A stretch of DNA of 64,000 bases from Aquabacterium sp. NJ1 (GTDB lineage Bacteria; Pseudomonadota; Gammaproteobacteria; Burkholderiales; Burkholderiaceae_C), in contig NZ_JRKM01000001.1 in the NCBI RefSeq assembly GCF_000768065.1, positions 434,001-498,000 on the forward strand, read 5' to 3'. The position numbers and the translations under genes were made by a program. Below are positions 12,009 through 26,176 of the stretch, in pieces. Within the stretch, counting starts at the first letter, position 1, and each line of letters begins with the position of its first letter. The notes under the pieces are model-generated. The model ran no database searches and was not told where the DNA came from. It saw only the letters and a program-made list of their open reading frames with translations.

Positions 12009-15000
12009 TCAAGCCTTGCCAAACGCCGCCATCAACTTGGCCCACTCGCCCTGCACCGGCACCAGGTTGGCGTGGCGCACCGGGCCATAGCCCTTGATCT
12101 TGTCGGCCAACTCGGCCACCTTGCAGGCTGTCTCCAGATTGCCCGCATTCAGCGTGCGCAAGATGGTTTCCAGCATGCCCACGTACTGCGCCAGCACGGC
12201 GCGGTCTTCCCGGCGATCACGGCTGTAGCCCATCGGGTCCAGCCAGGTGCCACGCAAGCCGCGCAGCATCGCAAGCCACCGCATCCCCCACTGCCACAAC
12301 GGGCCGAAGTCATGCTTGCGCGGGCGATCGCTGGCGCTCTTGGCGCCGCCCAGCCATGGTGGCGCCAGGTGCAGCACCATGCGCCAGTCGCCCTCGAACT
12401 GCTCGTCCAGCTGGGCCTTGAAGGCACGAGAAGTCAGTAAGCGGGCCACCTCGTATTCGTCCTTGTAGGCCATCAGCCGGAACAACTGGCGCGCCACGGC
12501 CTCGGTCAGCCGGGTGCTGCTCAAGGTGGACTCGGCCTGGCGCACGCGCCCGACCAGCGCGCGATAGCGCTCGGCATACGCCTCATCCTGGTACTCGGCC
12601 AGGTAGCTCATGCGGCGCTGCACCAGAGTATCCAGGTCTTCCTTGCCGTAGCGCAACGGGCGCGCGGCCCATTGCACCGGCTGCGCAGGCATGCTCATGC
12701 GGGCCACGAACACCGGGTCGTGCGCGGCACGGCGGCCCCATTCGAATGCTGCCAGATTACGTTCCACCTGCACGGCGTTGAGCTCGATCGCGCGGGTCAG
12801 CGAAGCCAGGCTCAAAGGCACCCAGCCCATCTGCCAGGCGTAACCCAGCATCAGCGGGTTGGCGTAGATGGCATCACCCAGCAAGCGGGTGGACAAGGCC
12901 ACGGCGTCCAGCCGCTTGATGGCTTGCACGCTCACCTCATCGGCCAGCACCTGATCACAATGGCCGGCTGGGAACTGCCAGTTGGCATCGTGCATCAGGG
13001 CCGCGGTGGGGGTGTGGTGAGTGTTGAGCGCCACGCGTGTGCGGCCTTTGCGCATCACGGCCACGGTACTGGCATGTGCGGCCACGATGGGATCACAGCC
13101 AATCACCAGATCGGCCTCGGCCATGCCCACCTTGGTGGTGAAGATGGCGTCTGGTGTGTCGGCGATCTGGATGTGGCTCCAGGTGGCGCCGCCCTTTTGC
13201 GCCAGCCCGGCTGACTCCTGCGTCACCGCGCCCTTGCCTTCCAGGTGGGCCGCCATGCCCAGCAACTGGCCGATGGTGATCACGCCCGTGCCGCCAATGC
13301 CAGCCACCACGACGCCGTAGGCCGATGCGGCCGATGGCAGCTCGGGCTCGGGCAAGGCGGGCAGCTTGCTCAGGTCAGGCGCGCCCTCCTTGGGTTTGGG
13401 CGCCCGCAACTGGCCGCCCTCGACGGTGACCAGGCTGGGGCAGAAGCCCTTCACGCATGAGAAGTCCTGGTTGCACGAGCTCTGGTTGATCTTGCGCTTG
13501 CGCCCGAACTCGGTCTCCACCGGCTCGACACTCAAGCAATTGGACTGCACGGCGCAGTCGCCGCAGCCTTCGCACACCAGCTCGTTGATCACCACGCGCT
13601 TGGCCAGCTTGGGCATGGTGCCGCGCTTGCGGCGGCGGCGCTTTTCGGTGGCGCAGGTCTGTTCATAGATGATGACCGTGCAGCCCTCGACCTCGCGCAG
13701 CTCCTTTTGGACGCTGTCCAGCTCGTCCCGGTGGAACACCTGCACGCCTGGCGCCAGGTCATCGATAGACAGGTACTTGTCCGGGTCATCGCTGACCACC
13801 ACCACGCGGCGCGCACCTTCTGCATGCAGCTCACGCGTCATGGCCGGCACAGACAAGGTGCCATCAATGGGTTGGCCACCGGTCATGGCCACCGCATCGT
13901 TGAACAGGATCTTGTAGGTGATGTTGACCTTGGCTGCGATGGCCTGGCGCACGGCCAGCAGGCCTGAGTGGAAATAGGTGCCGTCACCCAGGTTGACGAA
14001 CACATGCTTTTCATCGGTGAACGGGGCCTGGCCGACCCAGCTCACGCCCTCGCCGCCCATTTGCGTGAAAGTGCCGGTGCTGCGGTCCATCCACATGGCC
14101 ATGTAGTGGCAACCGATGCCGGCCATGGCACGCGAGCCCTCCGGCACGCGTGTGGAGGTGTTGTGCGGGCAGCCACTGCAGAACCACGGGGCACGCTCGA
14201 CACTGGCGCTCTGGTGCGCCAGGGCTTCTTCCTTGGCTTCGATCACGCGCAGGCGCTCGGTGATGCGCTCGCGCAAGGCGGGCTCCATGTCGCGCAAGAG
14301 GCCGAGCTTGTCGATGCGCTGCGCCACGGCCTTGGCGATGATGGCCGGGGTCAGATCGGCCTTGGCGCGCAGCAACCAGCGCGAAGCCGGGTTGGGCATG
14401 GACCATTCGCCACCGGTGAAGTCGCCATCGGGCTCGCTGAACTTGCCCAGTACATTGGGGCGCACGTCTTCACGCCAGTTGTACAGCTCTTCCTTGAGCT
14501 GGTACTCGATCATCTGGCGCTTTTCTTCGATGACCAGGATCTCCTGCAGGCCGGTGGCGAACTCGCGCGTGCTGCTGGCCTCCAGCGGCCACACCACCGA
14601 CACCTTGTGGATGCGCAAGCCGATGCGCCGGCAGGTGTCATCGTCCAGGCCCAGGTCATGCAAAGCCTGGCGCAAGTCGTTGTAGGCCTTGCCACTGGCG
14701 ATCAGGCCCAGCTTGGGGTTGTCGCTGTCGAGCACCGTGCGGTTGAGGCGGTTGGCGCGGATGTAGGCCAAGGCCGCGTACCACTTGTAGTCCATCAGCC
14801 GCGCTTCCTGCGCCAGCGGGGCATCGGGCCAGCGGATGTGCAAGCCGCCTTCGGGCATCACAAAATCACCAGGCAAAACGATTTGCACACGGTCCGGGTC
14901 GACACACACCGTGCTGGACGACTCCACCACTTCCTGAATGGCCTTCAGGCTGGACCACAGGCCCGAGAAGCGGCTCATGGCAAAGGCGTGCAGGCCCAGG

Positions 15001-15575
15001 TCCAGAATTTCCTGCACCGAGCTCGGGAAGAACACCGGCAGGCCACAGGCCTTGAAGATGTGGTCGCTCTGGTGCGCCACGGATGAACTCTTGGCCGTGT
15101 GGTCATCACCGGCCACGGCCACCACGCCACCGTATGGCGAGGTGCCGGCCATGTTCGCGTGTTTGAACACGTCAGAGCAACGGTCCACACCGGGGCCTTT
15201 GCCGTACCACATGCCAAAGACACCATCGAAGCGATGCGGCCCTGGCGTCAGCGCCAGCTGCTGCGTGCCCCAGACCGCCGTGGCGCCCAACTCCTCGTTG
15301 ACCCCGGGCTGGAACACGATGTGGTGCTTCTGCAGATGGGGCCTGGCCTGCCACAAGGCCTGGTCATAACCACCCAGGGGTGAGCCTCGATAGCCGCTGA
15401 TGAACCCGGCGGTGTTCAGGCCCACCATGGCGTCTCGGGTGTGTTGCAGGATGGGCAGGCGAACCAGCGCCTGGATCCCGCTCATGAAGGCCTGGCCTCG
15501 ATCAAGCGCGTACTTGTCGTCCAGCGACAGGGTCGCCAGGGCCTTGAGCACATCTGCCGGCAGCGGTGCGTTCAT
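12009..15575 (-). CDS. Indolepyruvate ferredoxin oxidoreductase, fused IorA-IorB type
   Basis: This 1188-residue protein oxidatively decarboxylates an aryl- or branched-chain 2-oxo acid to the acyl-CoA with ferredoxin as acceptor. Domains in order: a pyrimidine-binding half (~1-420), a TPP pyrophosphate-binding domain with GDGTYFHSGL and NDAVAMTGGQ (~440-640), a cysteine-rich iron-sulfur segment (CEGCGDC, then CNQDFSC), and a C-terminal gamma-type domain beginning GVVVAGIGGTGVITIGQ. Archaeal enzymes use two chains; the single-chain form is typical of many proteobacteria. AGGAGG lies six bases before the ATG at 15575, which decides the start. Exact substrate preference is unknown. It is transcribed alone. 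Confidence 0.93.
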   Translation of the reverse strand: MNAPLPADVLKALATLSLDDKYALDRGQAFMSGIQALVRLPILQHTRDAMVGLNTAGFISGYRGSPLGGYDQALWQARPHLQKHHIVFQPGVNEELGATAVWGTQQLALTPGPHRFDGVFGMWYGKGPGVDRCSDVFKHANMAGTSPYGGVVAVAGDDHTAKSSSVAHQSDHIFKACGLPVFFPSSVQEILDLGLHAFAMSRFSGLWSSLKAIQEVVESSSTVCVDPDRVQIVLPGDFVMPEGGLHIRWPDAPLAQEARLMDYKWYAALAYIRANRLNRTVLDSDNPKLGLIASGKAYNDLRQALHDLGLDDDTCRRIGLRIHKVSVVWPLEASSTREFATGLQEILVIEEKRQMIEYQLKEELYNWREDVRPNVLGKFSEPDGDFTGGEWSMPNPASRWLLRAKADLTPAIIAKAVAQRIDKLGLLRDMEPALRERITERLRVIEAKEEALAHQSASVERAPWFCSGCPHNTSTRVPEGSRAMAGIGCHYMAMWMDRSTGTFTQMGGEGVSWVGQAPFTDEKHVFVNLGDGTYFHSGLLAVRQAIAAKVNITYKILFNDAVAMTGGQPIDGTLSVPAMTRELHAEGARRVVVVSDDPDKYLSIDDLAPGVQVFHRDELDSVQKELREVEGCTVIIYEQTCATEKRRRRKRGTMPKLAKRVVINELVCEGCGDCAVQSNCLSVEPVETEFGRKRKINQSSCNQDFSCVKGFCPSLVTVEGGQLRAPKPKEGAPDLSKLPALPEPELPSAASAYGVVVAGIGGTGVITIGQLLGMAAHLEGKGAVTQESAGLAQKGGATWSHIQIADTPDAIFTTKVGMAEADLVIGCDPIVAAHASTVAVMRKGRTRVALNTHHTPTAALMHDANWQFPAGHCDQVLADEVSVQAIKRLDAVALSTRLLGDAIYANPLMLGYAWQMGWVPLSLASLTRAIELNAVQVERNLAAFEWGRRAAHDPVFVARMSMPAQPVQWAARPLRYGKEDLDTLVQRRMSYLAEYQDEAYAERYRALVGRVRQAESTLSSTRLTEAVARQLFRLMAYKDEYEVARLLTSRAFKAQLDEQFEGDWRMVLHLAPPWLGGAKSASDRPRKHDFGPLWQWGMRWLAMLRGLRGTWLDPMGYSRDRREDRAVLAQYVGMLETILRTLNAGNLETACKVAELADKIKGYGPVRHANLVPVQGEWAKLMAAFGKA

Positions 15576-15846
15576 CACGACCTCCTGAGGTCTGCTGCAC
15601 CGCGTCATGCCTGATCACGATCGACAGGCTCGCCGCGCAGCAGGAAACCTGGATACAGACACAGTGTAGGCCTGCATACCCCAGCATGGTCTATCGCTTT
15701 CACGGGGGAAACGGCGCCCGTTGGGCCCTTGCAAAACCGGTGCATCGGCCCTATTTCACGCACACCACGCATCGCCCCTCTCAAGCCAGGCTTGCTGCAG
15801 CGCAACGATAATGGCGCCTTGGCTTGAACCACAGGATTTTTCGACC

Positions 15847-16494
15847 ATGTACACCGGCATCGTCCAGGGCCTCGGCCGCGTCGTGACCCTCACTCCGACC
15901 ATCAGCGGCTTGCACCTCACCCTGCGCATCCCCCAGGCACTGCTCCACGATCTGCAGATCGGCGCCAGCGTGTCGGTCGACGGCGTGTGCCTGAGCGTGG
16001 TCACCATCGAGGGCGAACTGGTCTCGTTCGATGCCATCAACGCCACGCTGGAGCGCACGAACCTGGGCGACCGCCTGGTGGGCGATGTGGTCAATATCGA
16101 GCGATCGGCCCGTCAAGGCGACGAAAACGGCGGGCATGCCATGTACGGCCATGTGTCCGACACAGCGCGCATCAGCTCCATCGTCCTGGATGGGCCCCGT
16201 GCCCACGTGGAGTTGCATGTGCGCGCACCCTGGCGCAACTACCTGTTCCCGCGCGGCTTCCTGTCGATCAACGGCTGCAGCCTGACCCTGGCCGAAGCCG
16301 ATTCGGAACGGGGCTACTGCCGCGTCAACCTCATCCCCGAAACCATCCGCGTCACGGGCCTGTTCCAGTACCGCGCTGGCGACCGGCTCAACATCGAGGT
16401 CGAGCAACAGACACAGGTGCTGGTGGATGTGATCGAGCGGGTGCTGGAGCGCCAGGCCAGACGCGCTGCGAACGGGGCGCCTTCTGCAGCCTGA
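15847..16494 (+). CDS. ribE: Riboflavin synthase alpha chain (gamma-proteobacterial-like form)
   Basis: A 215-residue protein with two lumazine-binding barrels. It would dismutate two 6,7-dimethyl-8-ribityllumazine molecules into riboflavin. Visible family features are the start MYTGIVQG, Cys48 in DGVCLS, NGGHAMYGH with His97 and His102, CSLTL with Ser145 and Thr147, and LIPET. The residue after Met is Tyr, where most enzymes have Phe, and Ser50 replaces the usual Thr. The overall pattern resembles Escherichia coli RibC more than the usual Burkholderiales enzyme encoded with ribD. No other riboflavin gene is nearby and no FMN riboswitch was seen. It may be a second copy or a lumazine-binding relative. 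Confidence 0.75.
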   Translation: MYTGIVQGLGRVVTLTPTISGLHLTLRIPQALLHDLQIGASVSVDGVCLSVVTIEGELVSFDAINATLERTNLGDRLVGDVVNIERSARQGDENGGHAMYGHVSDTARISSIVLDGPRAHVELHVRAPWRNYLFPRGFLSINGCSLTLAEADSERGYCRVNLIPETIRVTGLFQYRAGDRLNIEVEQQTQVLVDVIERVLERQARRAANGAPSAA

Positions 16495-16616
16495 AACCGT
16501 CCGGTTTGCCCGACAAAGTAGATACCCCACGCTGTATCAAGAATCGTTCTCAACTGGACCCCGTTAAACCACCCTGATTCACCCTTCTTTACATTCATCC
16601 CGCACGCTGCTCAAGC

Positions 16617-16635
16617 GTTTGGTCACACACCAAAC
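16617..16635. promoter_or_regulatory. Inverted repeat upstream of the cytochrome operon
   Basis: GTTTGGT (16617-16623) and ACCAAAC (16629-16635) form a perfect 7-5-7 palindrome about 145 bases before the cytochrome-porin gene. It could be an operator or the stem of an RNA hairpin; there is no T run. The rest of the 286-base gap (16495-16780) shows nothing else that I can name. Confidence 0.35.
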
Positions 16636-16780
16636 CTAGACTAATGGGATGAATGCACATTTCCAGGATCCTCTCCGATCCCTGATGTTGCGTTCACGAA
16701 GACGACAAGCCCCAGGGATTCAAGTGCGGCAGTGCCTGAAGGCCGACCGCACGCCACAACACGGAGATAGAGGATCAAGC

Positions 16781-18082
16781 ATGAGTAAGAGTTCTTCCTT
16801 GGCGCTCAAGGCGCTGTGGGCCTGCGTGCCTGTTGCCATGGCTTTTCTGAGCAGCCAGGCCCAGGCCGTTCCCAGCTTTGCGCGCCAGACCGGCCAGGAC
16901 TGCGCCGCCTGTCACATTGGTGCCTACGGCCCGCAACTGACGCCCTTCGGCATCAAGTTCAAGCTCGGCGGTTATGTGGACTCTGACGGCAAGGCCGGCA
17001 AGATCCCGCTGTCTGCCATGGTGGTCGCCGAATACGCGCGCTTCAAGGAGCCCGACGCCAACGGCAACAACGTCACGTCCTCCAAGATGGGCCTGGCTGA
17101 GTCGTCCGTGTTCCTGGCCGGCAAGCTGAGCGACAACATCGGCAGCTTCGTGCAGGTCACCAACAGCGGCGTGGACCACACCACCGGCATCGACCAGGCT
17201 GACCTGCGCTACGCCACCACGCTGGGCATCGGCGGCGGCAAGGAAGCGCTGGTTGGCGTGTCCGTCAACAACAACCCCAGCGTGCAGGACCCCTTCAACA
17301 CCCTGCCCGTCTGGAGCTTCCCGTACACGGCATCTGACCGCGTCACCAACCCGGGTGTGGACACGGTCTCCGGCTCGCTGGAACAACGTGTCATCGGCGT
17401 CAACGCCTACAGCCTGATCGACGACAACATTTACGCCGAACTGGGCTTGTACAACAGCATCTCGCCTGCGATGCAGTCCCGCCTGGGCTCGGGCCGCTAC
17501 CCGGACGGCGCAGAGTTCGGCGGCTTGAGCAACGCCCCTTATGTGCGCCTGGCCTACATGAAAGACCTGCACACGCAAGCCTGGAATGTGGGGCTGCTGG
17601 CTTTCAACGGCAAGCTGGAGGATCGCGCTTCGGCCGACTCGACCAAGTTCAAAGACTTCGGCATCGATGGCAGCTACCAGTTCCTGGGTACGCGCGAGCA
17701 CATCGTCACGGTCAACGGCAGCTACATCCGCGAGCGCACCACCGCCAACGCGAGCGGCGTCGACACGAACAACACGGTCAAGAACACCAAGCTGGCAGCG
17801 TCCTATCACTTCCAGAACACCTATGGCGCCACCTTGGGTTACTTCAAGGCCACCAGCGAAGACCAGCACGCCGGCAACCGCGGCTTCCTGTACCAGGTGG
17901 ACTGGACGCCCTGGGGCAAGGAATCGTCCTGGGCCGCGCCGTGGGCCAACCTGCGCGTGGGCATGCAGTACATCCAGTTCAAGCGCTACGTGAGCTATGA
18001 CGCGGACAACGACATCACCACCGTACTCGGCAAGCCTGGTGACATGAACAGCCTGCGCCTGTTCGCCTGGACGTCGTTCTAA
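16781..18082 (+). CDS. Outer-membrane monohaem cytochrome c-porin fusion protein
   Basis: This 433-residue protein has a signal peptide ending SSQAQA (residue 29). A short cytochrome segment carries a single CAACH haem motif (Cys41, Cys44, His45) within SFARQTGQDCAACHIG. About 350 residues follow, rich in alternating polar and hydrophobic strands, and the protein ends in phenylalanine (LFAWTSF). That is the profile of an outer-membrane beta barrel. The one-haem-plus-barrel architecture and length recall Cyc2-type iron oxidases, but the similarity is architectural and I cannot claim orthology. It is followed after 64 bases by a tetrahaem NapC/NirT gene and a cytochrome c gene, so electron transfer across the outer membrane is a reasonable inference. 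A start at 16649 is possible but would precede the signal peptide with a non-signal extension. Confidence 0.75.
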   Translation: MSKSSSLALKALWACVPVAMAFLSSQAQAVPSFARQTGQDCAACHIGAYGPQLTPFGIKFKLGGYVDSDGKAGKIPLSAMVVAEYARFKEPDANGNNVTSSKMGLAESSVFLAGKLSDNIGSFVQVTNSGVDHTTGIDQADLRYATTLGIGGGKEALVGVSVNNNPSVQDPFNTLPVWSFPYTASDRVTNPGVDTVSGSLEQRVIGVNAYSLIDDNIYAELGLYNSISPAMQSRLGSGRYPDGAEFGGLSNAPYVRLAYMKDLHTQAWNVGLLAFNGKLEDRASADSTKFKDFGIDGSYQFLGTREHIVTVNGSYIRERTTANASGVDTNNTVKNTKLAASYHFQNTYGATLGYFKATSEDQHAGNRGFLYQVDWTPWGKESSWAAPWANLRVGMQYIQFKRYVSYDADNDITTVLGKPGDMNSLRLFAWTSF

Positions 18083-18146
18083 CCCTGCAGATGAACAGCG
18101 CCTTGCCTGCACCCAATCGTGCAGCAAGGCGCTCGTGGAGCAAACG

Positions 18147-18755
18147 ATGACGTCCCTCTGGCAGCGCATCAAGAATCAAAAACCATGGGCCAAAGTGCTC
18201 GAAATCCAGGCCATCTTCCTGATGATGGTGGGCGCCGCACTCGCGGTCGGTGGCAAGGTCTCGGTCGACCACACCAACACGCTCGAATTCTGCGTCTCGT
18301 GCCACGAGATGAAGGACAACAACTACGCCGAGTACAGCCACACCATCCATGCGAAGAACCGCACCGGGGTCAAGGCCATCTGCTCGGACTGCCATGTGCC
18401 GCATGAATTCATCGACACGATGATCCGCAAGGCGCGGGCCTCCAACGACGTGCTGCAACACATGCTGGGCACCATCGACACCAAGGAGAAATTCGAAGCC
18501 CGCCGCCTGGAGATGGCCAAGAAGGTCTGGCTGCGCATGAAGCAGACGGACTCCAAGGAGTGCCGCAACTGCCATGACGTCAAGGCCATGGACCCCGAGA
18601 TGCAGGGCAAGACCGCCCAGACACAGCACAAGAAGCTGCTCAACGGCAGCAGGACCTGCATCGATTGCCACTACGGCATCGCGCACAAGGAGCCTGAAGG
18701 CGGCGTGGAGCCTCAGGACGTGCTGGACGAAGCCACGCACAAGCAACCCGGTTAA
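18147..18755 (+). CDS. NapC/NirT family tetrahaem cytochrome c, membrane anchored
   Basis: A 202-residue protein with one N-terminal membrane helix (~residues 17-37) and a periplasmic domain. The domain has four CxxCH haem sites: CVSCH (49-53), CSDCH (79-83), CRNCH (139-143) and CIDCH (171-175). NapC/NirT/CymA proteins oxidise the quinol pool and pass electrons to periplasmic partners. No reductase gene of the napA, nirS or nrfA type is adjacent. Instead the flanking genes are an outer-membrane cytochrome-porin and a monohaem cytochrome. I use the ATG at 18147, preceded by GGAG; a GTG at 18135 would add four residues. Confidence 0.92.
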   Translation: MTSLWQRIKNQKPWAKVLEIQAIFLMMVGAALAVGGKVSVDHTNTLEFCVSCHEMKDNNYAEYSHTIHAKNRTGVKAICSDCHVPHEFIDTMIRKARASNDVLQHMLGTIDTKEKFEARRLEMAKKVWLRMKQTDSKECRNCHDVKAMDPEMQGKTAQTQHKKLLNGSRTCIDCHYGIAHKEPEGGVEPQDVLDEATHKQPG

Positions 18756-18791
18756 ACGACTGTTTTCGACTGTTTTCGAAAGATTCAAGTG

Positions 18792-19175
18792 ATGAAGAAC
18801 ATGAAGCCCATGCACGCCCTGTTGATGGCAGCGTGCACACTGACCATGGCCGGCCACGCCATGGCGGCCGGTGACGCCAAGAAAGGCGCCGATGTCTTTG
18901 CAGGCGAATGTGGCGACTGCCACAGCCCCAAGGAAGGCAAGGCCAAGAAGGGCCCGCCGCTGTTTGGCGTCATCGGGCGCAAGGCCGGTACGGTCGCTGA
19001 CTTCAACTACTCTGAGGCCATGAAGCAAAGCGGCATCACCTGGTCGCCCGACAAGATCGACCTGTACATCACCCGCCCCAAGAAGCTGGTTCCTGGCGGC
19101 AAGATGAAGTACGACGGCCTGGATGACGCCGCGGCGCGCGCCGACGTCATCGCCTACATCCAGTCGCTCAAGTAA
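18792..19175 (+). CDS. Periplasmic class I monohaem cytochrome c
   Basis: A 127-residue protein with a signal peptide ending AMA (residue 26), the haem motif CGDCH (Cys40, Cys43, His44), and a likely axial Met105 in PGGKMKY, as in class I c-type cytochromes. It would be a soluble electron shuttle in the periplasm. It is the third gene of the cytochrome operon, 36 bases after the NapC-like gene, so it could carry electrons between the inner-membrane tetrahaem protein and the outer-membrane fusion. The ATG at 18792 is preceded by a poor ribosome-binding site. Confidence 0.9.
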   Translation: MKNMKPMHALLMAACTLTMAGHAMAAGDAKKGADVFAGECGDCHSPKEGKAKKGPPLFGVIGRKAGTVADFNYSEAMKQSGITWSPDKIDLYITRPKKLVPGGKMKYDGLDDAAARADVIAYIQSLK

Positions 19176-19190
19176 ACGCGACAGTGATGC

Positions 19191-20288
19191 TCAATGGGTG
19201 GCCGGTGCAGCCTTGGGCTTGTCCGGCCACTCGATTTCAGCCGAGCTGGTGCACTCCGAATCGTTGGGCTTCATGTCGCAACGGATGCGCTTGAGCACCT
19301 TCAACGCACGCTTGTCATACAAGCCGGCCTCGGCGATTTCCACGCGGCCATCGCGCAGCATCTGGATGTAGCGCACCAGATCGGCCGAGGGGATGTCCAT
19401 CCACACCTTGGCAGGCAACTCGGCTTCAGCCTTGCGGATCATGCCCAGGGTCGTATCAAACTGGCTGAGCCAGTACTGGCGCGCCTTGAGGCCGGTGCCG
19501 GGCGGGAACTTGTTCTTGTTGATGATGACCTGGTAGGTCAGGAAGGTGACAGGCATGCGCGAGATCGCGCCCTTGGTGCCAATGCCTTTGTACAGCTCCA
19601 GCGGCTTGTAGGCCAAGGCTGGGGCAAAGATCACATCGACCAGACCATTGTTGAACTTGCTGGCGAAATTGGTGATGTCGGCGGGAATCGGCTGCGCGCC
19701 AATGCGCGTGATCGCCATGTTCTGCACCTTGTCCACATCGAATGCGGCAATGCGCTTGCCAGCCGCAGCTTCCACGCTGTTGATCTTGCGGTCATTGACG
19801 ATCGGGTAGGCCGCGCCCATGGGGATGATGCCCGCCACCTCGTACTTGTCCTGCACCATCAGCTTGCTGGCGCCCGGCGAAGCGAACACCTCGATGGCCT
19901 TGCGCAGGATCTCGTAGCTGGCTTCCATGTCGATCTTGCCGTTGCGCTCCATGGTGGTGGCGCCCAGGGCGTCCACCGTGGCGGCGACCAGGTTGTAGGG
20001 CTTGCTGCGAAACGAGGTCACGGCCATGGCATCACACTGGCCGCTGCGGAAGTCTTCAGCGGCCACACGTTCGTCGGTGTAGGCCTTGAGTTCGATGTCC
20101 ACGCCCATGTTGAGCTTCTGCATCGCCAGCACGAAGTCCTTGGCGGCGGAAAAGGCCGGCCCCGACGTCCCGATGATGTCGAAGACGCAAGCCGTCTGGC
20201 CAGACCAGGCGGGTGCGGTGGCCAGGCTGATCAAGCTCAGGGCCAGCCATCTTGCAGGGCGGAAACGCGAAAGGGTTGCAGGCAGCAT
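19191..20288 (-). CDS. Periplasmic solute-binding protein (TRAP/DctP-like, lone)
   Basis: About 365 residues with an N-terminal hydrophobic signal sequence. The body has the alternating alpha/beta pattern of a solute-binding protein (SAAKDFVLAMQKLNMGVDIELKAY, DLVRYIQMLRDGRVEIAEAGLYD). It appears to belong to a group of putative solute-binding proteins distantly related to DctP. No permease genes adjoin it on this strand: it lies tail to tail with the cytochrome c gene (15-base gap) and upstream of the separate dctR-dctS pair. I prefer the ATG at 20288; a GTG at 20300 is the alternative. The ligand is unknown. Confidence 0.7.
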   Translation of the reverse strand: MLPATLSRFRPARWLALSLISLATAPAWSGQTACVFDIIGTSGPAFSAAKDFVLAMQKLNMGVDIELKAYTDERVAAEDFRSGQCDAMAVTSFRSKPYNLVAATVDALGATTMERNGKIDMEASYEILRKAIEVFASPGASKLMVQDKYEVAGIIPMGAAYPIVNDRKINSVEAAAGKRIAAFDVDKVQNMAITRIGAQPIPADITNFASKFNNGLVDVIFAPALAYKPLELYKGIGTKGAISRMPVTFLTYQVIINKNKFPPGTGLKARQYWLSQFDTTLGMIRKAEAELPAKVWMDIPSADLVRYIQMLRDGRVEIAEAGLYDKRALKVLKRIRCDMKPNDSECTSSAEIEWPDKPKAAPATH

Positions 20289-20409
20289 CGACTCGTCCAC
20301 ATGTGAATATTGGGTAAGTCAATCTAACAAACGCGATTGCGGCCCTGCCAAGGGGTTTCACCTGTGGCCCCCGCGAGTTGACGCCTGCAGCCCCCACTGC
20401 GTCGCCAAT

Positions 20410-21036
20410 TCACCCGCCAGCCAACCAGCCCGCCAGTTCGGCGGCAGAGCGCACACCCAGTTTGGAAAACACCCTTGCCCGGTGCACTTCCACCGTCCGC
20501 ACCGCGATGTGCAGTTCGTCGGCGATCACCTTGTTGAGCTTGCCTGCGGCCACGCGGTGCATCACCTCCTGCTCGCGCTCGCTGAGGCTGGCCAGACGGG
20601 CCTGACGCTCCTGCGCCTGCGCGTTGTGGGCGCGCGAGGCGGCCTCCACGGCCAGCGCCTGCTCGATGCGGTCCACCAGGGTGTTGTCGCTGTAAGGTTT
20701 TTCGAGGAAGTCGAAGGCCCCTTTCTTCAAGGCCTCCACCACCATGGGGATGTCGCCGTGCCCGCTGAGAAACAGTACGGGGTTGCGCACGCCCATGGAC
20801 AACAGGGATTCGTGCAGCATCAAACCTGACATGGGCTCCATGCGGACATCCAGCACGAACACACCGGGCATGGGCTGACTGGAGCGAGCCAGGAAATCCA
20901 GCAAGGCCAGCCCGCCATCAAACGCATGCACCACCAGGCCGCGTGAGCCCAGCAGAAACACCAGTGCGTCACGCACCACGGCTTCGTCATCCACCAGGTA
21001 CACCACACCCTTGTCCTTCAATGGCACGGCATTCAT
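20410..21036 (-). CDS. dctR: Response regulator, FixJ/DctR type
   Basis: A 208-residue two-domain regulator. The receiver domain has the acidic pair VDDE near residues 16-17, phospho-acceptor Asp63 in VLDVRM, and the conserved lysine in FLEKPYS. The C-terminal LuxR/FixJ-type helix-turn-helix (LSEREQEVMHRVAAGKLNKVIADEL) binds DNA. The start overlaps the dctS stop by four bases (ATGA), so the pair is translationally coupled. The divergent dctPQM genes are the likely target, giving dicarboxylate-induced uptake, as for Rhodobacter DctSR. The regulated site is not proven. Confidence 0.88.
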   Translation of the reverse strand: MNAVPLKDKGVVYLVDDEAVVRDALVFLLGSRGLVVHAFDGGLALLDFLARSSQPMPGVFVLDVRMEPMSGLMLHESLLSMGVRNPVLFLSGHGDIPMVVEALKKGAFDFLEKPYSDNTLVDRIEQALAVEAASRAHNAQAQERQARLASLSEREQEVMHRVAAGKLNKVIADELHIAVRTVEVHRARVFSKLGVRSAAELAGWLAGG

Positions 21037-23057
21037 GCGTCCACCTCCCTTGAATCAGCTTGATCTACACCGTGGTCAGCCGCGTCGATGGGCAGGCTGA
21101 AGGAGAACACGGCGCCGCGCTCTGGCGCCTCCTCGGCATCCAGCACCCCATAGTGCAACTCGATGATGGAGCGGCAGATCGCCAGCCCCATGCCCATGCC
21201 CTCGGCCTTGGTTGAATAAAACGGCGCAAACAGGCGATCACCACGCTGGCCTTGCAAGCCGGGGCCGTTGTCGGTCACGGACACGCGCACGAAGCGCCCT
21301 GCTGGCGCCGCAGACACGTGGATGCGCCGCTCGCCCGCTTGCGTGGACAAGGCATCGCTGGCGTTGCGCACCAGGTTGACGACCACCTGCTCAATCAGCA
21401 CGGGGTCGGCCACCACCTCAGGCAAATGCGGATCACCCTGGATGCTCACATGCACATCATGCCGAGACAGGTCACGCTTGAGCAATGACACGCCCGATTC
21501 GATCACCCCCATGATGTTGCAGGGCTCGCGTCGAGGCTCGCGTCGCGTCAGGAACTCGCGGATGCGCTTGACGATGCGCCCGGCATGCGCCGCCTGTTCG
21601 CCCATGCGCTGCAGGGCCTTCATGATCTGCGGGTCCATGTCGTCGCGCGCGCCCAGCGCATTGAGCAAGCCGGCGTTGTAGCTGGCAATGGCCGACAAGG
21701 GCTGGTTGAGCTCGTGCGCCAGCGTGGAGGCCACTTCGCCCAGCATGGTCAGGCGTGCGTGGTGCGCCATGGTTTCCATCTGCTTGCGCTCGCGTTCCTC
21801 CATGTGCTTGCGCTCGGTCACGTTGAGCACGGAGGCCATCCAGCCGATCTGCATGCCCTTGGCGTCCACCAGGGGCGCCTCGAACACCATGACGTCCACC
21901 TCGGTGCCGTCCCGATGCTGCCAGCGCGATTCGTAGCCTTCCCGCGGCGCCTTGCCCGCCATGTTGCGCAAGTGGCGGCTCATGCTTTGCTCCAGCTCGT
22001 GCGGCACCCAGTAAGGCATTGGCGGCATCAAGCCGATCAGCTCGTCAGGCTGGTACCCGACCATGTCGGCCATGGTCTTGTTGACGTACACAAGGCGCCC
22101 CTGCATGTCCCGGGCGCGGATGCCCACGGCCAGCGAGTCCTCCATGGCCGAGCGCCAGGCGGCCTCGGTGCGCCAGGCTTCTTCGGCCCGGGACACGCTG
22201 TGCATCTGCTTCCGGAGCATGACACTGGCAATGCCCAGCAGCACCACGAAGCCCCCCATCAAGGCCATGGGCATGGTGCGCCACCAGGGGGTGATGCGTT
22301 CGCGAGAAGCCAGCTCCAGCCAGGCATTGGGCAAGGAGGGGGCCATCGACACGCGGTACCAGGCCTGCATGGGGTGCCGCGGGCCATCCACTGTCGAGGC
22401 AATCACCTCGTCAGATTCATCCACCAGCCGGATGTCGTACTTGGCAGCGAGCCACCACGGCACCTTCTGGCGCAGCAGCGCGCCGGCCGAGTAACGCGCC
22501 ACCAGCATGCCACCCGGGTGCTCATCGTGCCCCGCCAGCGAAACGGACAGGTGCCCCGCCATGCCCACCTCGTCACCGATGTTGCGCGCGGCGTCATGTG
22601 CCGGCATGGAATCATCAGGCACGTGCGCCAGAATGCGCCCATCGTCCCCCAGCCAGGTCAGGCTGACCCAGAAGCGCCGCAGCCCGTCGAGCACCAGCGC
22701 ATGCCGCGCGAAAGCGTCCTGGCTCATGGGCCTGGACTGGATGACATCTGCCAGCGCGCGCAGCTTGTTGGTCTCTTCGTCCAGCCGGTTGGTGATCTGC
22801 GCCTCCAGCGACAAGGCGTCCGAGATCATGTCGGCGCGCTGCGCCTCGCGATCGGCCACCTCCTTGGCCTGCAACCAGATCATGACGCCGGCCACCAGCA
22901 GCACGGACAGCACAAGCGGCCAGGCCCACAGAGAGGGCATCAAGGCAAAGCGGGAGCCCAGCAGGTGCAACCTCGGGCGCGGTGGCACGGCCAGAGCGGG
23001 ACGCTCGGGCACACGCACGCCAGGCGCACGGCGATCGACCTTGTCCTTGTTTGTCAT
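21033..23057 (-). CDS. dctS: Sensor histidine kinase, DctS-like with PAS domain
   Basis: A 674-residue membrane kinase. Two hydrophobic segments near residues 37-60 and 265-285 flank a periplasmic sensing region of ~200 residues. A PAS/PAC region follows (~300-420), then the phosphorylation box AHELNQPLSAI. The ATP-binding domain carries DNGPGLQG and MGMGLAICRS. This order is that of DctS-type C4-dicarboxylate sensors. It pairs with the overlapping dctR gene and is divergent from the TRAP operon. The long proline- and arginine-rich N terminus is unremarkable. Confidence 0.88.
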   Translation of the reverse strand: MTNKDKVDRRAPGVRVPERPALAVPPRPRLHLLGSRFALMPSLWAWPLVLSVLLVAGVMIWLQAKEVADREAQRADMISDALSLEAQITNRLDEETNKLRALADVIQSRPMSQDAFARHALVLDGLRRFWVSLTWLGDDGRILAHVPDDSMPAHDAARNIGDEVGMAGHLSVSLAGHDEHPGGMLVARYSAGALLRQKVPWWLAAKYDIRLVDESDEVIASTVDGPRHPMQAWYRVSMAPSLPNAWLELASRERITPWWRTMPMALMGGFVVLLGIASVMLRKQMHSVSRAEEAWRTEAAWRSAMEDSLAVGIRARDMQGRLVYVNKTMADMVGYQPDELIGLMPPMPYWVPHELEQSMSRHLRNMAGKAPREGYESRWQHRDGTEVDVMVFEAPLVDAKGMQIGWMASVLNVTERKHMEERERKQMETMAHHARLTMLGEVASTLAHELNQPLSAIASYNAGLLNALGARDDMDPQIMKALQRMGEQAAHAGRIVKRIREFLTRREPRREPCNIMGVIESGVSLLKRDLSRHDVHVSIQGDPHLPEVVADPVLIEQVVVNLVRNASDALSTQAGERRIHVSAAPAGRFVRVSVTDNGPGLQGQRGDRLFAPFYSTKAEGMGMGLAICRSIIELHYGVLDAEEAPERGAVFSFSLPIDAADHGVDQADSREVDA

Positions 23058-23109
23058 GCGCCCAGTCTAGATGGCCCGCACCCGGTGCAACCCTAGGGTG
23101 ATGCACGAA

Positions 23110-23123
23110 TGTGGATGTCCACA
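23110..23123. promoter_or_regulatory. Palindrome in the dctS-dctP intergenic region
   Basis: TGTGGA-TG-TCCACA is a perfect 6-2-6 palindrome, 61 bases before dctP and 52 bases before dctS. Its place between a LuxR-type two-component system and its likely target operon makes it a candidate DctR operator. Confidence 0.4.
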
Positions 23124-23184
23124 ATTTGCCGCAGGCACCTGAAGCTGAACAATGGGCCATCCAAAACGCCCCGGAGACACCCCC

Positions 23185-24213
23185 ATGTTCAAGCTGAAGA
23201 CTGCCTCCTCTCTGCGCCGCAGCATGCTCACCCTGGCCGCGTCCATGGCCCTGCTGCCTGCCGCATTTGCCCAATCCCCCATCATCATCAAGTTCAGCCA
23301 CGTGGTGGCCGTGGACACCCCCAAGGGCAAGGCTGCCGAGTTCTTCGCCAAGCGTGCGGCCGAGTTGACCAAAGGCCGCGTCAAGGTCGAGGTCTACCCC
23401 AACAGCCAGCTCTACAAGGACAAGGAAGAGATGGAAGCCCTGCAATTGGGCTCCGTCCAGATGCTGGCACCCTCGCTGTCCAAATTCGCACCGCTGGGCG
23501 TGAAGGAATTCGAAGTCTTCGACCTGCCCTTCATCTTCGACGACTACCCTTCCCTGCACAAGGTCACGAACGGCCCCATCGGCCAGGGCCTGCTGCGCAA
23601 GCTGGAAACGCGCGGCATCCACGGCCTGGCCTACTGGGACAACGGCTTCAAGGTCATGTCCGCCAACAGGCCTCTCAAGACCGTCGAAGACTACAAGGGC
23701 CTGAAGATGCGCATCCAGTCCTCCAAGGTGCTGGATGCTGAAATGCGCGCGCTGGGTGCCCTGCCCCAGGTGCTGGCCTTCTCCGAAACCTACCAGGCCC
23801 TGCAGACGGGGGTGGTCGACGGCACCGAGAACCCGCCTTCCAACCTGTACACCCAGAAGATGCATGAGGTGCAAAAGCACGTCAGCGTCACCAACCACGG
23901 CTACCTGGGTTACGCCGTGGTCGTGAACAAGAAGTTCTGGGACGGCCTGCCCTCGGACATCCGCGTCGCACTGAGCAAGGCCATGGCCGAAGCCACCCAG
24001 GTGGCCAACGACGTGGCCTTCCAGGACAACCAGGAGGCCCTGGCCAAGGTGCAGGCCTCGGGCAAGACGGTGGTCTACAAGCCCACGATCGGCGAGCGCT
24101 TCCTGCTCAAGAAGGCGCTGATGCCCGTGCACAAGCAGATGGCCTCGCGTATCGGTGAAGACGTCATCCAGTCCATCTACAAGGAAACCAACTTCGATCC
24201 CAGCAAGATGTGA
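23185..24213 (+). CDS. dctP: TRAP transporter substrate-binding protein DctP
   Basis: A 342-residue periplasmic receptor with a signal peptide (MFKLKTASSLRRS, hydrophobic core, then AFAQ). It shows the DctP fold signatures IIKFSHVVAVDTPKGKAAEFFAKR and VEVYPNSQLYKDKEEMEAL, and the arginine-containing segment KGLKMRIQSSKV that contacts the ligand carboxylate. It matches the C4-dicarboxylate (succinate, malate, fumarate) branch. GGAG lies nine bases before the ATG. It is the first gene of dctP-dctQ-dctM, and a hairpin terminator after it probably lets it be made in excess over the permease. Confidence 0.95.
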   Translation: MFKLKTASSLRRSMLTLAASMALLPAAFAQSPIIIKFSHVVAVDTPKGKAAEFFAKRAAELTKGRVKVEVYPNSQLYKDKEEMEALQLGSVQMLAPSLSKFAPLGVKEFEVFDLPFIFDDYPSLHKVTNGPIGQGLLRKLETRGIHGLAYWDNGFKVMSANRPLKTVEDYKGLKMRIQSSKVLDAEMRALGALPQVLAFSETYQALQTGVVDGTENPPSNLYTQKMHEVQKHVSVTNHGYLGYAVVVNKKFWDGLPSDIRVALSKAMAEATQVANDVAFQDNQEALAKVQASGKTVVYKPTIGERFLLKKALMPVHKQMASRIGEDVIQSIYKETNFDPSKM

Positions 24214-24239
24214 TCGAAGCGGGATGACACCAGGACTCA

Positions 24240-24265
24240 GCCCACGCCACGACGTGGGCTTTTTC
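24240..24265 (+). terminator. Terminator-like hairpin inside the dctP-dctQ gap
   Basis: GCCCACG (24240-24246) pairs perfectly with CGTGGGC (24253-24259) and is followed by six T. It lies between two genes of one operon, so it is likely a partial terminator that lowers permease expression relative to the binding protein. Confidence 0.75.
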
Positions 24266-24284
24266 ATACCGAGGAGATGCCATC

Positions 24285-24884
24285 ATGAAATGGCTTGACC
24301 ACCTGGAAGAGTGGCTGATCGCGACCTTCATGGGCGCCGCCACACTGATCATTTTTGTGTCCGTGCTGCACCGTTACGCGGTTGGCTTCAACAGCCCCAT
24401 ACAGGACTGGCTGCTGACACTGAACTTCGCCTGGGCCCAGGAGGCCACCATCTACCTGTTCGTCTGGATGGCCAAGTTCGGCGCAGCCTATGGCGTGCGC
24501 ACCGGCATCCACGTCGGGGTGGACGTACTGATCAACCAGCTGTCGCCGCCCAGGCGCAAGTTCTTCGTGTTGTTCGGCCTGCTGGCGGGCGCCCTGTTCA
24601 CCGGCACCATCGCCACCATGGGCGCGAGTTTCGTGTGGCACAACGGTGCGCACTACGCGTTCTACAACGCCTTCCACCTCGACATGACCGACCTGATCGA
24701 AGGCCCCACCACACCCGATCTGGAATGGCCGACCTGGATCATCTACATGGCGATCCCGCTGGGCTCATCCCTGATGTGCTTCCGCTTCCTGCAGGTGGCC
24801 TGGAACTTCACCCGCACGGGTGAACTGCCTCACCACGACCATGGCCATGTGGATGGCCTCGACGACGAAGTGGCCAAGGCCTGA
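24285..24884 (+). CDS. dctQ: TRAP transporter small membrane subunit DctQ
   Basis: A 199-residue protein with four hydrophobic segments, typical of the small TRAP permease subunit. The central WAQEATIYLFVWMAKFGAAYGVRTGIHV region is a DctQ hallmark. The tail is rich in histidine and aspartate (HHDHGHVDGLDDE). It partners DctM in sodium-driven dicarboxylate uptake. GAGGAG precedes the ATG. It follows the hairpin after dctP and is 11 bases before dctM. Confidence 0.93.
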   Translation: MKWLDHLEEWLIATFMGAATLIIFVSVLHRYAVGFNSPIQDWLLTLNFAWAQEATIYLFVWMAKFGAAYGVRTGIHVGVDVLINQLSPPRRKFFVLFGLLAGALFTGTIATMGASFVWHNGAHYAFYNAFHLDMTDLIEGPTTPDLEWPTWIIYMAIPLGSSLMCFRFLQVAWNFTRTGELPHHDHGHVDGLDDEVAKA

Positions 24885-24895
24885 AGGAGCAGCAC

Positions 24896-26176
24896 ATGAA
24901 CGGCATCATCATTTTCGCTGTGCTGCTCGCACTGATGCTCACGGGCATGCCCGTGTCCATCTCGCTGGGCCTCACGGTTCTCACCTTCATCTTCGGCTTC
25001 ACACAAGTACCGCTGGAATCGGTCGCGCTCAAGCTGTTCACCGGCATCGAGAAGTTCGAGATCATGGCGATCCCCTTCTTCATCCTGGCCGGCAACTTCC
25101 TGACGCACGGCGGCGTCGCGCGGCGCATGATCAACTTCGCCACCAGCATGGTGGGGCACTGGCACGGTGGGCTGGCCTTGGCTGGCGTGGTGGCCTGCGC
25201 CTTGTTCGCTGCAGTGTCGGGCTCTTCGCCTGCCACGGTGGTGGCCATCGGCTCGATCCTGCTGCCGGCCATGGCCAAGGCGGGTTTTCCCAACAAGTTC
25301 GGCGCGGGCGTGGTCACCACCTCGGGCGCACTGGGCATCCTGATCCCACCCTCCATCGTGATGGTGATGTATTCGGTGTCCACCAACACCTCGGTCGGGG
25401 CGCTGTTCCTGGCTGGCGTCGTCCCTGGCGCCCTGCTGGCCTTGATGCTGGGCTTCACCACCTGGTGGCGTGCACGCAAGTTCGGTTACCCGCGCCAGCC
25501 CAAGGCCACGTTTGCGCAGCGCTTCAAGGCCTTCAAGGAGTCCTTCTGGGGTTTGCTGTTGATCGTGGTGGTGATGGGCGGGATCTACACCGGCATCTTC
25601 ACCCCCACTGAGGCTGCCGCCATGGCCGCGGTGTACGCCTTCTTCATCGCCGTGTTCGTCTACAAGGACATGGGCTTGAAGGACGTGCCCCGCGTGCTAC
25701 TGAACTCGGCCAACATGAGCGCGATGCTGCTCTACATCATCACCAACGCGGTGCTGTTCAGCTTCGTGCTGGCCAATGAGAACATCCCGCAGCAACTGGC
25801 CGACTGGCTGGTCGGCATGGGCCTGGGCCAGATCGCCTTCCTGCTGGTGGTCAACATCCTGCTGCTGGTGGCGGGCAACTTCATGGAACCGTCGTCGATC
25901 GTGCTGATCATGGCGCCCATCCTGTTCCCCGTGGCCACCAAGCTGGGCATCGACCCCATCCACTTCGGCATCCTGATCGTGGTCAACATGGAAGTCGGCA
26001 TGTGCCACCCGCCGGTGGGGTTGAACCTGTATGTGGCCTCGGGCATCACCAAGATGGGCATCACCGAGTTGACCGTGGCCGTCTGGCCCTGGCTGTTGAC
26101 CATGCTGGTCTTCCTGGGCCTGGTGACCTACTGGCCGGGCCTGTCCTTGTGGCTGCCCCACCTGCTGATGCAATAA
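24896..26176 (+). CDS. dctM: TRAP transporter large permease subunit DctM
   Basis: A 426-residue inner-membrane protein with about twelve hydrophobic segments, the usual length for DctM, which forms the transport channel. Recognisable segments are GMPVSISLGL near the start, VSGSSPATVVAIGSILLPAM, and LGILIPPSIVMVMYSVSTNTSVG. AGGAG lies six bases before the ATG. It completes the TRAP system, and a strong terminator follows. Confidence 0.95.
   Translation: MNGIIIFAVLLALMLTGMPVSISLGLTVLTFIFGFTQVPLESVALKLFTGIEKFEIMAIPFFILAGNFLTHGGVARRMINFATSMVGHWHGGLALAGVVACALFAAVSGSSPATVVAIGSILLPAMAKAGFPNKFGAGVVTTSGALGILIPPSIVMVMYSVSTNTSVGALFLAGVVPGALLALMLGFTTWWRARKFGYPRQPKATFAQRFKAFKESFWGLLLIVVVMGGIYTGIFTPTEAAAMAAVYAFFIAVFVYKDMGLKDVPRVLLNSANMSAMLLYIITNAVLFSFVLANENIPQQLADWLVGMGLGQIAFLLVVNILLLVAGNFMEPSSIVLIMAPILFPVATKLGIDPIHFGILIVVNMEVGMCHPPVGLNLYVASGITKMGITELTVAVWPWLLTMLVFLGLVTYWPGLSLWLPHLLMQ

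Follow-up and report, generated by a model that had tools for sequence, protein, structure and literature searches.

A Cyc2-like porin-cytochrome encoded beside its own NapC/NirT protein in Aquabacterium sp. NJ1: a candidate compact conduit for electrons through the cell envelope

The operon and its three products

The window analysed here is a stretch of 64,000 nucleotides from the 5.0 Mb genome assembly of Aquabacterium sp. NJ1, and three cytochrome genes lie together on its + strand at positions 16781-19175. The first of them (16781..18082, stop included) encodes a Cyc2-like fused cytochrome-porin of 433 aa, recognised by its motif, its predicted barrel and its C-terminal Phe. It is followed after 64 bases by the gene of a membrane-anchored tetrahaem protein of the NapC/NirT family (18147..18755, 202 aa) and, after 36 more, by that of a periplasmic class I cytochrome c with a signal peptide and one CxxCH, which has 127 aa if read from its ATG (18792..19175) and would have 128 aa from an alternative GTG at 18789. 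A Pfam search of the window gave no reductase gene within the operon; gene order, strand, gaps and the lack of a terminal reductase gene are thus as the original prediction had described them. The order porin, then NapC is also found in genomes G318 and G317, and in G311 the NapC gene begins at a contig end directly after the porin gene. Because of this recurrence, the grouping of the genes goes beyond chance.

The same Pfam search placed a lumazine-binding (riboflavin synthase-like) gene upstream of the operon. Downstream, a gene for an AdeT-type solute-binding protein (19191-20300; PF19582, 288 bits) lies on the other strand, convergent with the operon, and a two-component system and a TRAP transporter (DctP, DctQ, DctM) occupy window positions 20410-26176. 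A gene of the indolepyruvate ferredoxin oxidoreductase family was observed at 12009-15608. Scanning the operon for promoters and terminators turned up nothing promoter-like; two terminator-like sites lie on the opposite strand, no more than shuffled sequences gave.

The 433-aa protein has a signal-peptide-like start, the motif AVPSFARQT and, three residues further on, a CAACH haem site at residue 41, which is its only CxxCH. PQL and a long region ending in Phe complete it, in agreement with the single haem, signal peptide and long C-terminal region that had been predicted. Keffer et al. 2021 (PMC8406198) define Cyc2 proteins by three sequence motifs, AXPXFAR[Q/K][T/Y], CXXCH and PXL, by a minimum length of 365 residues and by a porin of 16 strands. 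The first of these motifs is present in the window protein, the published distance of "5 amino acids upstream" depending on how one counts, and its length and single haem site also agree with the definition. The proline of PQL is the sixth residue after the His of CxxCH, versus a published PXL four residues after CXXCH. A scan of named genomes confirmed at least 583 porin candidates, and the best 80 of these were kept as named relatives; all 80 show the same PXL spacing as the window porin, 50 carry the strict first motif, and 69 do if Tyr is permitted for Phe.

According to an AlphaFold2 model computed without haem (mean pLDDT 84.8, pTM 0.83), the porin would have 16 strands, the number expected in the original prediction. 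The alignment behind it had 70 rows, namely the window protein and 69 named relatives out of the 80, the remaining 11 being omitted by choice. Used as a Foldseek query, the model found general porins as top matches (VhChiP, OmpT, Omp32), and the 50 matches listed also include OprP and OprO, the porins with which Cyc2 has been compared (Keffer et al., PMC8406198). Query TM values in these 50 ranged from 0.27 to 0.50, and the fit is therefore one to barrels in general. With E values allowed up to 1, the porin had no match to any Pfam family, PF11854 (MtrB/PioB) included, and it matched nothing informative in NCBIfam or among PDB sequences, where a 20-row profile gave two weak matches (E 0.034 and 0.6). 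With Pfam, a single one of 70 porin members had a match, to an unrelated family at E 0.009. The comparison with MtrB/PioB proposed beforehand for the 433-residue protein thus ended without a PF11854 match and with a Cyc2-like motif instead. An MtrB/PioB-type porin was rejected on the 16 predicted strands and on the lack of any MtrB/PioB match in the genome. Motif, length, single haem and predicted barrel agree with the proposed Cyc2-type identity; sequence and model together support gene 1 as a Cyc2-type porin.

The second product matches PF03264 with 218.9 bits (gathering cut-off 24.1) and carries four CxxCH, with CxxCHxM at haem I, which bears out its prediction as a tetrahaem NapC/NirT protein. 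Against TIGR02161 it reaches 225.2 bits, under the cut-off of 310.6. As controls, the NapC of a nap operon in G304 passes (321.7), the NapC linked to MtoA at locus L267 scores 223.7, and that linked to a FARKY-type porin at locus L262 scores 296. The operon NapC is the sole NapC match in its genome (G000). Since the genome has no NapA above the cut-off, the best weak matches being the NasA-like gene of the window, a Nap-type role of this NapC was rejected. Three genomes of the genus hold a NapC with 51-52% identity and no porin match; in one of them, G304, it adjoins a true NapA. The third product, likewise foreseen as a soluble class I cytochrome, matches PF00034 with 41.3 bits, and its best matches among PDB sequences are cytochromes c and c2.

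Neighbours of the porin gene in related bacteria

Of 42 genomes in the genus, 14 had a porin match, as did 37 of 299 genomes in a family sample and 71 of 300 in an order sample. Neighbours were counted as BLAST matches to the window cytochrome, to NapC and to b561 within 2.5 kb of the porin. Among the 80 named relatives, the best of at least 583, a cytochrome match lies near the porin in 55, NapC in eight and b561 in 33. One more NapC case (L114) was counted by hand: its contig ends just past the porin, and the matching contig of G311 contains the first 56 NapC residues after the porin. For these best 80 of at least 583, the tally of partners is then nine with NapC, 33 with b561, none with both, nine with too short a flank and 29 with neither, the last meaning no match to the NapC and b561 queries, so that they may carry partners beyond these. 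Four b561 proteins were checked and belong to PF01292 (181-196 aa); the remaining b561 calls are BLAST similarities to two of these four. All 41 loci of the best 80 with a NapC or b561 partner by BLAST also have the cytochrome (41/41). The chance of zero overlap between eight and 33 of these 80 is 0.011, kinship ignored.

Porin and cytochrome are therefore the commoner core, and the quinone-linked neighbour is exchangeable, either NapC or b561. The original prediction had called for a survey of whether the three genes remain linked. Porin, cytochrome and NapC are indeed linked in some genomes, but the three genes are often apart, NapC being present in nine and b561 in 33 of the best 80 of at least 583 relatives; unlinked genes had been named beforehand as a refutation, and the survey in part counts against the original prediction in this respect. 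The NapC-or-b561 pattern fits a link to quinone in which NapC is one of two alternatives.

In a quick tree built from 99 porin rows, four changes are required to explain the NapC label; rows L262 and L263 sit in it on very long branches and their placement is unsure. The window, L074 and L114, all with NapC, cluster next to a group of which L077, L115 and L116 carry b561, and the eight rows of both groups form one clade (100 SH-aLRT). As L077 (by the code of its genome, G340) and L116 (by its title) belong to Aquabacterium, the partner was exchanged inside or near the genus. We also observed that porin and b561 of L130, a MAG titled Chitinophaga pinensis, group with betaproteobacterial rows, and the label may be wrong. 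At locus L084, in G310, a further genome of the genus, the type of site seen at window positions 15802-23057, next to genes resembling those of riboflavin synthase and DctS, contains another Cyc2-like porin (31% identity) and a dihaem cytochrome, as if alternative cassettes had been taken up at one site.

NapC-type places were also sought in 300 genomes of the order. There were 100 of them, in 64 genomes, and by coordinates four lie within 5 kb of a porin match (G000, G096, G154 and G067). In a careful, unrooted NapC tree of 42 rows, the ten full-length NapC linked to window-type porins form one clade (100/97), and four NapC adjoining decahaem cytochromes form a separate one (97/88). A split separates both, together with row L242, from the remaining 27 NapC/NirT rows (97/96). 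The same split was seen in an earlier 46-row tree (90/97), from which the 42 rows were obtained by removing three duplicates and L121, a 107-aa fragment at a contig end that fell among other NapC. Without L242, the 14 rows are no clade in the best tree, yet they are not rejected as a clade (p-AU 0.268). The L242 NapC gene lies between two monohaem genes, and no porin was found there. Of the decahaem-linked loci, L267 encodes a DmsE-type protein (TIGR03508) with MtrB/PioB as the next gene, both by family search, and the other three were assigned from ten haem motifs alone. The TIGR02161 scores given above agree with the tree, the window and L267 proteins lying under the cut-off and the nap-operon NapC of G304 above it. 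From this grouping we infer that the window NapC is related to ImoA, the tree being unrooted and containing no named ImoA. As a side observation, a NapC gene at L268:5147-6734 is flanked by two monohaem cytochrome genes; neither a decahaem nor a porin gene was found nearby, and the NapC groups with Mto-type NapC.

Two of the linkages in the order differ in their arrangement. In G154 (L262:4556-8084), a FARKY-type Cyc2 homologue is followed by two monohaem cytochromes and then NapC; in G067 (L263:4937-7986), a dihaem protein and then NapC come after a Cyc2-like homologue, with response-regulator-like genes adjoining. We take the FARKY form of the motif to be a mark of Cyc2 cluster 1. Both NapC lie outside the window NapC clade in the 42-row tree, which suggests that NapC was recruited on at least two occasions; judged from these sequences, the G154 locus is an independent Cyc2-NapC linkage.

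Substrate, direction and rival readings

We propose that the operon encodes a compact, Mto-like electron conduit through the envelope, in which one fused cytochrome-porin takes the place of MtoAB. Its likely task would be to oxidise dissolved Fe(II), and the direction of exchange between NapC and quinone would depend on conditions. We consider this somewhat more probable than otherwise. The proposal builds on gene order, family features, the predicted strand count, the grouping of NapC and the exchange of partners, and goes from these to where the proteins would be located, how electrons would pass among the three, what the substrate would be and which way the electrons would run. At the outer membrane, a small dissolved redox substrate would reach the single haem of the Cyc2-type porin; electrons would travel through the periplasm on the class I cytochrome c and be exchanged with the quinone pool by the NapC/NirT protein. 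The idea of a conduit between quinone and outer membrane had been put forward in the original prediction and is supported, and the NapC-or-b561 pattern fits its link to quinone.

Knowledge of the family makes Fe(II) the leading candidate substrate. The three biochemically characterised Cyc2 proteins oxidise iron; the function of Cyc2 outside the well-known iron oxidisers is called uncertain, and homologues outside cluster 1, above all those of cluster 3, are regarded by their describers as uncertain iron oxidases (PMC8406198). Several Aquabacterium have been reported as nitrate-dependent Fe(II) oxidisers (PMC4732344), and a Cyc2-like gene of strain NJ1 has already been published (PMC5566968). 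Groundwater MAGs of the genus combine RuBisCO with possible metal oxidation, and the same study describes 25 MAGs with Cyc2, all of cluster 3 types (PMC13264449). The NJ1 genome contains the large and small subunits of RuBisCO, phosphoribulokinase, NarG and, about 4.1 Mb from the operon on the same contig, a gene for cytochrome cd1 that includes a c-type domain. In this strain, the operon would most likely serve to oxidise dissolved Fe(II) and to pass the electrons into the cytochrome c pool.

The direction is less straightforward. The potential of Cyc2 from M. ferrooxydans is +208 mV (PMC8406198). The transitions of ImoA span 0 to -400 mV, compared with +100 mV for ubiquinol, and PmcA (-143 mV), not MtoD (+155 mV), interacts with ImoA (PMC13390432). 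If the window proteins were like these relatives, transfer from cytochrome through NapC to ubiquinone would be uphill, and from quinol through NapC to cytochrome downhill. For this reason we read the cytochrome c as a junction that would receive electrons from the porin, with NapC exchanging with quinone as conditions allow, and we leave the direction either way, since ImoA, the characterised relative, has low-potential haems. The proposed conduit has against it these uphill potentials, the absence of NapC beside most relatives' porins, the doubt over iron oxidation by Cyc2 homologues outside cluster 1 and, in the kinases described below, the 2CSK_N type and the lack of RExxE.

A homologue of the sensor kinase lies within 5 kb of the porin in 32 of the 41 partner loci (8/8 with NapC and 24/33 with b561) versus five of the 39 loci without a partner, again among the best 80 of at least 583; among the 24, the one at L115 seems to be another kinase, to judge from its length and its identity of 32%. 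The four kinases tested are of the 2CSK_N type, presumably a TctE-type sensor domain. RExxE, which we take to be the Fe(II) motif of sensor kinases, is absent from the first 190 residues of all 37 neighbouring kinases (0/37), and the idea of an Fe(II) sensor was rejected. By eye, from protein starts, TRAP-like genes were also noted close to the porin elsewhere in the genus, in four genomes (L077, L078, L080, L081), and at Thiomonas-type loci (L090-L092). The 2CSK_N kinases and the TRAP transporter are hints of an organic-acid complex as substrate or signal.

These hints, with the TRAP transporter adjoining the cluster in the window, would also suit a conduit working outwards, in which quinol would pass electrons through NapC (b561 in relatives) and the cytochrome to a soluble oxidant inside the pore, such as a ferric-organic-acid complex. 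ImoA does oxidise quinol when expressed in Shewanella (PMC9600427), and the potentials of NapC-type proteins favour the path from quinol to cytochrome (PMC13390432). However, the characterised Cyc2 proteins work as iron oxidases, and NarG and cytochrome cd1 offer the cell other electron sinks; we regard outward transfer as unlikely, if worth keeping in mind. In other bacteria, nitrite reductases are served by proteins of the NapC/NirT family (PMC9600427), and the presence of cytochrome cd1 in a genome with no NapA above the cut-off allows the operon to be divided into two functions, a NirT-like quinol dehydrogenase that would feed cytochrome cd1 through the cytochrome c, and a porin merely co-transcribed with it. 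Against this division, NapC recurs beside the porin (nine of the best 80 of at least 583), the ten sampled full-length proteins have a clade of their own, and the cd1 gene is far away on the contig, which leaves it distinctly improbable. The patchy spread of the porin in the genus and order samples could even point to a decaying or neutral remnant with no present function. We give this very little credence, as the frames are open, the haem motifs are kept, and identity to G318 and G317 amounts to 89% for the porin and 92-95% for NapC, the G317 porin being cut by a contig end.

Relation to known systems

The window porin resembles Cyc2 of clusters 1-3 (McAllister 2020; Keffer 2021) in its motif, single CxxCH, length above 365 residues and 16 predicted strands. 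It differs in the two extra residues between CxxCH and PXL, common to all of the best 80 of at least 583 relatives, and in adjoining NapC. As in the Mto cluster of Sideroxydans lithotrophicus (mtoAB, mtoD, pmcA, imoA), an outer-membrane haem porin, a small monohaem cytochrome and a NapC/NirT protein are encoded together, and the window NapC groups with those beside decahaem cytochromes, plus row L242. In contrast to Mto, one fused monohaem porin replaces the decahaem MtoA and the 26-strand MtoB, and the genome is without an MtrB/PioB match. The rus operon of Acidithiobacillus (cyc2-cyc1-cup-coxBACD-rus) likewise contains a Cyc2-type gene and a periplasmic cytochrome gene (PMC10654088), but the operon described here has no oxidase or rusticyanin gene, and NapC stands in place of the terminal oxidase. 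The exchange of b561 and NapC among relatives recalls the Mto operon of KS Gallionellaceae, where a b561 protein has been proposed in the position that CymA holds elsewhere (PMC5566968). There, however, b561 is fused to a dihaem cytochrome beside MtoAB, whereas the four b561 proteins tested here belong to PF01292, are 181-196 aa long and are encoded next to a Cyc2-like porin.

In the open-access literature, Cyc2, ImoA/CymA and b561 are discussed, and we met no Cyc2 operon with its own NapC; subscription papers and supplements lie mostly outside this search, which makes it weak evidence of absence. The route from Cyc2 to quinone is described as unsettled; the proposals under discussion are the bc1 complex or alternative complex III (PMC5566968). 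It is tempting to propose that Cyc2-type porins have dedicated, exchangeable inner-membrane partners, either an ImoA-related NapC subfamily or b561, which would tie them directly to the quinone pool. The operon would then be a self-contained conduit, one that may work in either direction and on dissolved metal-organic complexes, and would not be only an Fe(II) oxidase feeding a terminal oxidase. We consider this quite possible, though we stop short of calling it probable.

In summary, the operon couples a Cyc2-type porin with a candidate quinone oxidoreductase of its own, which makes the question of the route testable with three genes, in a genus with cultured species. The exchange between NapC and b561 could serve as a genomic marker of quinone-linked Cyc2 systems.
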